Positions 62,989 to 63,850 of a DNA stretch of 64,000 nucleotides are shown piece by piece (position 1 is the stretch's first letter; each line of letters begins with the position of its first letter). The position numbers and the translations under genes were made by a program. The notes under the pieces are model-generated. The model did not search any database. It was not told where the DNA came from and saw only the letters and a program-made list of their open reading frames with translations. The DNA is from Turicibacter faecis (lineage in GTDB: Bacteria; Bacillota_I; Bacilli_A; MOL361; Turicibacteraceae): the NCBI RefSeq assembly GCF_037076425.1, contig NZ_AP028127.1, positions 1,518,001-1,582,000 on the forward strand, read 5' to 3'.

Positions 62989-63372
62989 TTATACCGAAGC
63001 TTCCTCCACTTTCATCTCTGTTAGTTCACTACTTTCTTTTATCGTTGATGTTTTCGTTTGAATAAACGATACCTTTTCTGCCACTACCTCGACCACCCGC
63101 AATGACTTATGATTAGGAATTTCATAAGTTTTGTGAACTAACCTTCCTTTAATTCCAATAATCGCACCTTTTCCACAATATTCTACCACGTTATGTGCTA
63201 AACCTTCCCACAAACTTACATTGATAAAATCAGTCTCATATTCGCCCGTCACTGAGTTTTTAAATGAACGATGAACCGCTAATGTTACCGTCGTCACTCG
63301 TTTCCCTTCCTGAGTCTCCATTAATTCCGGTTGACGGACTACCCGTCCAACTAAAACAACATTATTAAGCAT
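62989..63372 (-). CDS. ssb: Single-stranded DNA-binding protein
   Basis: 127-residue OB-fold protein starting MLNNVVLVGRVVRQPEL at ATG 63372 behind AAAGGAGAATATTG. Core: TLAVHRSFKN, DFINVSLWEG and KGRLVHKTYEI. It lacks the acidic DDDIPF-type C-terminal tip of canonical SSB and is short, so this may be a secondary SSB like SsbB/YwpH rather than the replicative one. Confidence 0.9.
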   Translation of the reverse strand: MLNNVVLVGRVVRQPELMETQEGKRVTTVTLAVHRSFKNSVTGEYETDFINVSLWEGLAHNVVEYCGKGAIIGIKGRLVHKTYEIPNHKSLRVVEVVAEKVSFIQTKTSTIKESSELTEMKVEEASV

Positions 63373-63548
63373 CAATATTCTCCTTTATTTTGTGTCTTCA
63401 TCTAACTATACGCAAAAAAACGACGATTTCCTTTTTTAATTTAACCTTTTTTATTCACTTCGTTCTCATAGGCTAAAAATTATTGAAAACGTATTCTGTC
63501 GATTTTTCTGCAAAGGACACAAAAAAGACATATTTTCTTGTCGAATTT

Positions 63549-63557
63549 TGATATAAT
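63549..63557 (+). promoter_or_regulatory. Extended -10 promoter of the C-rich small RNA
   Basis: TGATATAAT (TG, one base, TATAAT) on the plus strand. No good -35; extended -10 elements can work without one. Predicted start about 63564. Confidence 0.5.
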
Positions 63558-63563
63558 AACAAC

Positions 63564-63767
63564 TGTATTCATGAACATCCCCCCCCGTTCATGTAATACA
63601 TTCCTTTCATTATTGTTTTTCATTCCATTTTTTAATTTTTACATCCCCTCATCAAACAAATGTATTGGGTTAAATTTTAACAAACTTTTTTTGTTAAAAT
63701 TCCAAAAACCTTATACTATTCCCCTCTGGGAGAATTAGTGCCCCCCACTAATTCTCCCCTTTTTTTA
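63564..63767 (+). ncRNA. Candidate C-rich small regulatory RNA
   Basis: Begins with a hairpin TGTATTCATGAAC / GTTCATGTAATACA (one bulge) whose loop is AT followed by eight C (63577-63586). A second perfect hairpin ATTTTAACAAA / TTTGTTAAAAT is at 63674-63700. A 13-bp terminator GGGAGAATTAGTG / CACTAATTCTCCC with a five-C loop and T7 follows at 63728-63766. CCCC also occurs unpaired near 63645 and 63721. Exposed C-tracts suit pairing with Shine-Dalgarno sequences, as in known C-rich sRNAs of Gram-positives. No good protein frame fits. Expression is inferred. Confidence 0.6.
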
Positions 63768-63824: not shown

Positions 63825-63850
63825 AAAAAGCTCTCATATGAGAGCTTTTT
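63825..63850 (-). terminator. Terminator of the M16 peptidase gene
   Basis: AAAAAGCTCTCAT / ATGAGAGCTTTTT perfect 13-bp palindrome, T-tract on the minus strand, touching the stop codon. Confidence 0.85.

Follow-up and report, generated by a model that had tools for sequence, protein, structure and literature searches.

Unpaired C-rich motifs block Shine-Dalgarno sites in the case of RoxS/RsaE and FsrA, the small RNAs (sRNAs) of Bacillus and Staphylococcus. The LhrC1-5 RNAs of Listeria monocytogenes are multicopy, are controlled by LisRK and need no Hfq for target binding; their three UCCC sites are located in a stem-loop, in a linker and in the terminator loop, and pairing of these sites with ribosome sites has been shown (PMC4132741). 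For the CiaR-dependent csRNAs of streptococci, whose operator, TTTAAG-N5-TTTAAG, is located ten nt from the -10 element, pairing with ribosome sites has been proposed (PMC3091779). Here, we describe a C-rich locus in a 64,000-nucleotide stretch of the Turicibacter faecis genome (the window), and conclude that it is almost certainly an RNA gene. Turicibacter is a gut spore-former, and no sRNA work on it was found among open papers.

The features of the locus are collected in Table 1. An earlier note on this DNA had described an extended -10 element, a 13-pair 5' hairpin with an eight-C loop, a middle A/T hairpin and a 13-bp intrinsic terminator with a five-C loop. All four are present, with the refinement that the stem of the 5' hairpin contains one bulged base and that its loop is ten nt long. 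Two more CCCC runs, ACAUCCCCUC and AUUCCCCUCU, said to be unpaired, are unpaired in the predicted fold. No TTGACA-like -35 element was found in the promoter of the window RNA; the operator occupies the -35 position, and its end is 19 nt before TATAAT. The complement of the second unpaired arm, ATGAGGGGATGTA, resembles a Shine-Dalgarno sequence beside a start codon. Judged from the sequence, the RNA should be an independent transcript, with a promoter and a terminator of its own and no gene on the same strand downstream.

Table 1. Features at the window RNA locus (positions are those of the window).
Feature	Position	Strand	Remarks
Divergent neighbour, single-strand DNA-binding protein gene (ssb-like)	62989-63375	-	Pfam SSB, E 6.4e-25
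Upstream block GAAAACGTATTC (cf. GAAAACGTDTTC)	63485-63496		In all five Turicibacter homologues; degenerate in the sister genus
Operator AAGGACACAAAAAAGACATA (also RRACACAAAAARGACAYA)	63513-63532	+	Direct repeat GRACACAAAAARGACAYA, 11-bp period; in 6/6 homologues
Spo0A-box-like sequence CTTGTCGAA	63537-63545	+	Between the operator and the -10 element
Extended -10 promoter TGATATAAT	63549-63557	+	TTTGATATAAT invariant in 6/6 homologues
C-rich non-coding RNA, ca. 204 nt	63564-63767	+	5' end estimated from the -10 element; 3' end is the terminator T-run
Hairpin 1	63564-63600	+	13 pairs, one bulged base: 63564-63576 with 63587-63600
Hairpin 1 loop	63577-63586	+	AUC8, ten nt, eight of them C
Unpaired arm 1 ACATTCCTTTCATTATTGTTTTTCATT	63598-63624	+	Begins in the 3' foot of hairpin 1; invariant in 6/6 homologues
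Unpaired arm 2 TTTTTACATCCCCTCAT	63636-63652	+	Invariant in 6/6 homologues
Hairpin 2, A/U-rich middle stem	ca. 63673-63702	+	Two-sided changes in 4/7 modelled pairs
Unpaired arm 3 TTATACTATTCCCCTCT	63711-63727	+	Invariant in 6/6 homologues
Intrinsic terminator	63728-63767	+	13-bp stem at 63728-63758, C5 loop, T-run; consensus scan

The predicted fold of nucleotides 63563-63767 has an energy of -46.3 kcal/mol, which is 8.9 SD below that of dinucleotide shuffles (none of 200 was as stable), and the same fold is shared by homologues (z = -8.35 and -8.66). Two-sided compensatory changes were observed in 12 of 32 pairs (3.8 expected), a number reached by none of 500 shuffles. The structure used in this analysis was the RNAalifold consensus obtained from the very alignment tested; since it was derived from the same sequences, the contrast between paired cells in the alignment (97.4%) and in slid controls (34-39%) is biased in favour of the structure, while the two-sided changes are less affected. 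In hairpin 1, two-sided changes affect three pairs in the sister genus, where CATGAAC/GTTCATG is replaced by CAAGATT/AATCTTG around a C7 loop, so that a loop of seven to eight C is retained. Five pairs of the terminator stem show two-sided changes, and in the sister genus this stem is entirely different, yet its loop contains C9. Thus, both C-loops are maintained in homologues despite the change in stem sequence, and, while the stems vary in a compensated manner, the homologue alignment shows hardly any change in the unpaired pyrimidine arms.

A covariance search across related genomes, which the earlier note had suggested, revealed homologues in six of eight genomes of the family. According to BLAST and the covariance model, the window RNA is present as a single copy in all five Turicibacter genomes examined, and is absent from both genomes of the family's third genus. 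Identity to the window RNA is 85-97% in four Turicibacter relatives and 71% in the one positive genome of the sister genus. The other 288 genomes of the class that were searched (296 including the eight of the family) gave no match. The RNA adjoins the divergent ssb gene in every homologue, the sister genus included, while its downstream neighbour in the sister genus is a different gene; we therefore conclude that the RNA unit travels on its own. An exact 18-base pattern was found in two Turicibacter records among named genomes and had 19 scattered matches in other taxa, which is about the number expected by chance for so short a pattern. When compared with Rfam 15, which included RsaE/RoxS, LhrC and 6S where modelled, no family reached its gathering score across the whole window, and the best match inside the RNA in a permissive search scored 21 bits versus a cut-off of 60 bits. 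The claim of a novel sRNA is well supported by the compensatory changes, the conserved promoter and terminator, the lack of a conserved frame, of an Rfam match and of a same-strand gene downstream. The locus therefore represents a conserved RNA family not listed before, in a bacterium common in the gut.

Beyond what the earlier note had recognised, the window RNA shares its operator with an array of sRNA genes. A genome search for the repeat revealed a seven-copy tandem array of C-rich sRNA genes at 972.0-973.96 kb (copies at ca. 972.05-973.96). The array unit, ca. 140 nt long, consists of a TGTCTTGAAGAACAAGACA hairpin, a hairpin with a CUCCCC loop, unpaired CAUCCC and CAUCCCC arms, and a terminator. 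Each copy has its own promoter, and a clear terminator is found in all but the degenerate first copy; the operators precede TATAAT or CATAAT, mostly at the identical 19-nt spacing. The array is present in exactly those six genomes that have the window RNA and is missing from the same two of the eight family genomes. A third C-rich sRNA, ca. 145 nt long, with C-loops in one hairpin and in the terminator, is located at 1,808,950-1,809,190 on the minus strand and was found in four Turicibacter genomes. It is headed by an operator site at 1,809,154 (minus), but because the nearest -10-like sequence, TAATAAT, is located at a spacing different from that in the array, its membership in the set is less certain. 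Neither the array sRNA nor the third sRNA has a match in Rfam.

When an operator matrix built from the array copies alone was scanned over the whole genome, five array sites ranked highest, followed by the site at 1,809,154 (minus) and then by the window site, the seventh in the genome. At 21.3 bits, the operator of the window RNA in this strain scores below the array sites, and the value is contained in the range of best genome scores of column-permuted matrices (17.6-26.5 bits). Window-operator homologues in other genomes score up to 25.6 bits, and an array-promoter BLAST query finds the window RNA promoters of two other genomes. Since 21.3 bits alone is unconvincing, the link rests also on the conservation of the operator in all six homologues, on the identical spacing and on the BLAST match. 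In the same scan, lower-scoring matches, including one at a spoVG-like gene, were at chance level only. Based on these data, the window RNA is very probably a member of a set of C-rich sRNAs under common control.

Two further elements are found upstream of the window RNA. The sequence between the operator and the -10 element, CTTGTCGAA in this strain and exactly TTTGTCGAA in four of the five homologues from the genus, is one that we take to resemble a Spo0A box; the sister genus has a match in inverted orientation. In this genome, TTTGTCGAA occurs 38 times, with 20 intergenic occurrences versus 7.6 expected (2.6-fold enrichment), and one copy is located 118 bp upstream of spo0A itself, a gene present in all eight family genomes. 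Spo0A may act at the promoter of the window RNA. About 25 intergenic places (e.g., 112,297; 714,484; 2,101,159) share the context TTCTTTGTCAAATAGTGTTGCTGATTAATTTGTAACCT or a variant of it, which probably corresponds to the ends of a repeated mobile element, and the counts of TTTGTCAAA are therefore inflated. The upstream block GAAAACGTATTC has four matches in the genome, all of them intergenic, and with its flanks (TTGAAAACGTATTCT) fits the CcpA cre consensus in this strain; with low confidence, we suggest that this cre-like block could serve either the sRNA or the divergent ssb gene.

The earlier note had called two poly-C loops in one RNA unusual, which is only partly right, since LhrC has a similar arrangement (PMC4132741) and this genome is rich in C-loop hairpins. 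A count of intergenic hairpins with a stem of 7 bp or more and CCCC in the loop gave 86, versus 15-28 after shuffling (ca. three- to four-fold over-representation), and some of these hairpins, including those of the three tandem units described below, end orphan transcripts. The C-loop is thus a lineage habit, not a mark of the window RNA alone, and taken alone it says little about function. A further C-rich candidate sRNA, with terminator loops CUCCCCCC, was seen as three units in tandem at ca. 1,976.19-1,976.87 kb, ca. 8 kb from any upstream gene on the same strand and without the operator. Several other CCCC-loop hairpins are located far from same-strand genes (e.g., 65,966, 641,372, 641,547 and 2,015,223), and such isolated hairpins may be markers of more sRNAs.

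We propose that an activator, probably a response regulator, binds the direct repeat at the -35 position and switches on an extended -10 promoter having no -35 hexamer. The resulting RNA would form three hairpins and present C-rich sequence in two loops and two unpaired linkers; these sequences would pair with G-rich Shine-Dalgarno regions of several mRNAs and keep ribosomes from entering, with no need for Hfq. The tandem array and the third C-loop sRNA would be switched on by the same activator, so that all of them would constitute one regulon. Pairing with G-rich ribosome sites is indicated by the invariant unpaired C-rich arms and by the C-loops kept on changing stems. A search of the eight family genomes for Hfq (PF17209) gave no match, whereas control genomes were positive. 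We consider it probable that the window RNA acts by blocking Shine-Dalgarno sites, and the model as a whole, an Hfq-independent anti-Shine-Dalgarno repressor activated by a response regulator together with the array and the third sRNA, also appears likely.

Targets were predicted by duplex energy for 2213 called genes. With a cut-off of -14 kcal/mol, binding of the arms is ca. two to four times more frequent in ribosome-site windows than in coding windows, but over the 2213 genes the pairing with ribosome sites is not above that of composition-matched shuffled arms. The strong-looking sites include those of a ZIP transporter, a GntP permease, and a CsoR-like gene followed by a copper-ATPase-like gene; because shuffled arms perform equally well, no target is claimed. 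Conserved pairing in 204 orthologue pairs, a comparison of low power that covered 400 kb of one relative, was not above shuffles either, and when wobble-aware patterns of arms 2 and 3 were compared across six genomes, no gene had a site in two or more of them. Predicted pairing that exceeds controls and is conserved among relatives, as expected of an anti-Shine-Dalgarno sRNA, was thus not observed, and the enrichment for ribosome sites, by which the earlier note had proposed to check its claim, did not exceed that of shuffled arms. The trans-acting anti-Shine-Dalgarno repression that the note had put forward is nevertheless the most plausible way for the RNA to act, being consistent with the invariant unpaired C-rich arms.

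Several other explanations of the locus were considered. A structured RNA with an intrinsic terminator could be a cis-acting leader, an attenuator or a readthrough terminator of a neighbouring gene. The next gene, which begins at the right edge of the window, is, however, on the minus strand, with a terminator of its own at 63825-63850, and a different gene takes its place in the sister genus. Because no same-strand gene follows, we conclude that the window RNA is not a leader, and this whole class of explanations is very improbable. A near-perfect palindrome, AAAAAGCTCTCATATGAGAGCTTTTT, is located at 63825-63850, between the sRNA and the convergent gene, and may be a terminator for both directions. 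A small protein encoded on either strand has even less to recommend it. A 66-codon frame (plus strand) and a 47-codon frame (minus strand) are present in this strain, but neither is kept in homologues: differences of one or two bases in the length of C-runs, and other such differences, break frames on either strand, and the sister genus is without them. A shared minus-strand start, MKNNNERNV, lacks a Shine-Dalgarno match and is explained as a by-product of the invariant bases, and no Pfam match was obtained for frames at the RNA locus. The compensatory changes in stems fit an RNA instead. The coding reading is therefore largely refuted, in agreement with the earlier statement that no conserved protein frame fits the unit.

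The RNA might also be mainly protein-binding, its C-tracts titrating a protein that binds C-rich RNA, such as Rho or a KH-domain protein. Such a role would accommodate the persistence of C-loops on changing stems, their presence in several sRNAs, the failure to find Hfq in the eight family genomes and mRNA pairing no better than that of composition-matched controls. The linkers, however, are invariant across their full mixed sequence, beyond the C-runs, which suggests sequence-specific pairing, and we regard a protein sponge as unlikely. Also unlikely is a real mRNA-pairing sRNA that is controlled separately from the array, through Spo0A or carbon state, and whose resemblance to the array operators is fortuitous. 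While the Spo0A-like box of all homologues, the cre-like block of the genus and an operator score within the upper range of permuted matrices in this strain speak for separate control, the presence of the operator in all six homologues at the array-like spacing to TATAAT, the higher scores reached elsewhere and the array-promoter match to the window sRNA promoters of two other genomes speak against it. We therefore favour a window RNA co-activated with the array.

The operator provides a handle for finding and testing the whole set of co-regulated C-rich sRNAs. If the proposed model is true, the set would add a further independent example of the LhrC/csRNA design, in which a regulator acts via several C-rich anti-ribosome-site RNAs with redundant roles, in this case apparently without Hfq. 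A further, speculative and rather doubtful extension is that one response regulator drives a dedicated regulon of no fewer than nine C-rich sRNAs, which belong to three unrelated families and have near-identical operator-promoter layouts, and that the window RNA, by adding Spo0A and perhaps carbon state, is a node that couples this regulon to development.

The window RNA has an LhrC-type layout, with an AUC8 loop, two linker CCCC runs and a C5 terminator loop, all conserved in homologues. It resembles LhrC in target binding that would need no Hfq, in the two-component control proposed here and in the multicopy arrangement, which in this case is that of a separate partner family; it differs from LhrC in sequence and length, has no Rfam match, is single-copy and is found in Turicibacteraceae only. 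With the csRNAs, the window RNA has in common that a set of sRNAs carries a direct-repeat operator with an 11-bp period before the -10 element, and that unpaired arms are complementary to Shine-Dalgarno sequence plus AUG; the arms ACAUCCCCUCAU and CUAUUCCCCUCU are unpaired and invariant. The CiaR repeat TTTAAG was not found upstream of the window RNA, where there are instead GGACACA/AGACATA repeats; over the set, the repeats read RRACACA/RGACAYA and end 19 nt from the -10 element, and the RNA sequence is unrelated to that of csRNAs. The unpaired C-rich motifs of the window RNA are also a feature of RoxS/RsaE and FsrA, from which it differs in structure and promoter; at gathering score, it matches no known Rfam family. 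Taken together, these comparisons suggest that the window RNA most likely works like LhrC or the csRNAs, yet is a member of neither group and represents a new family.
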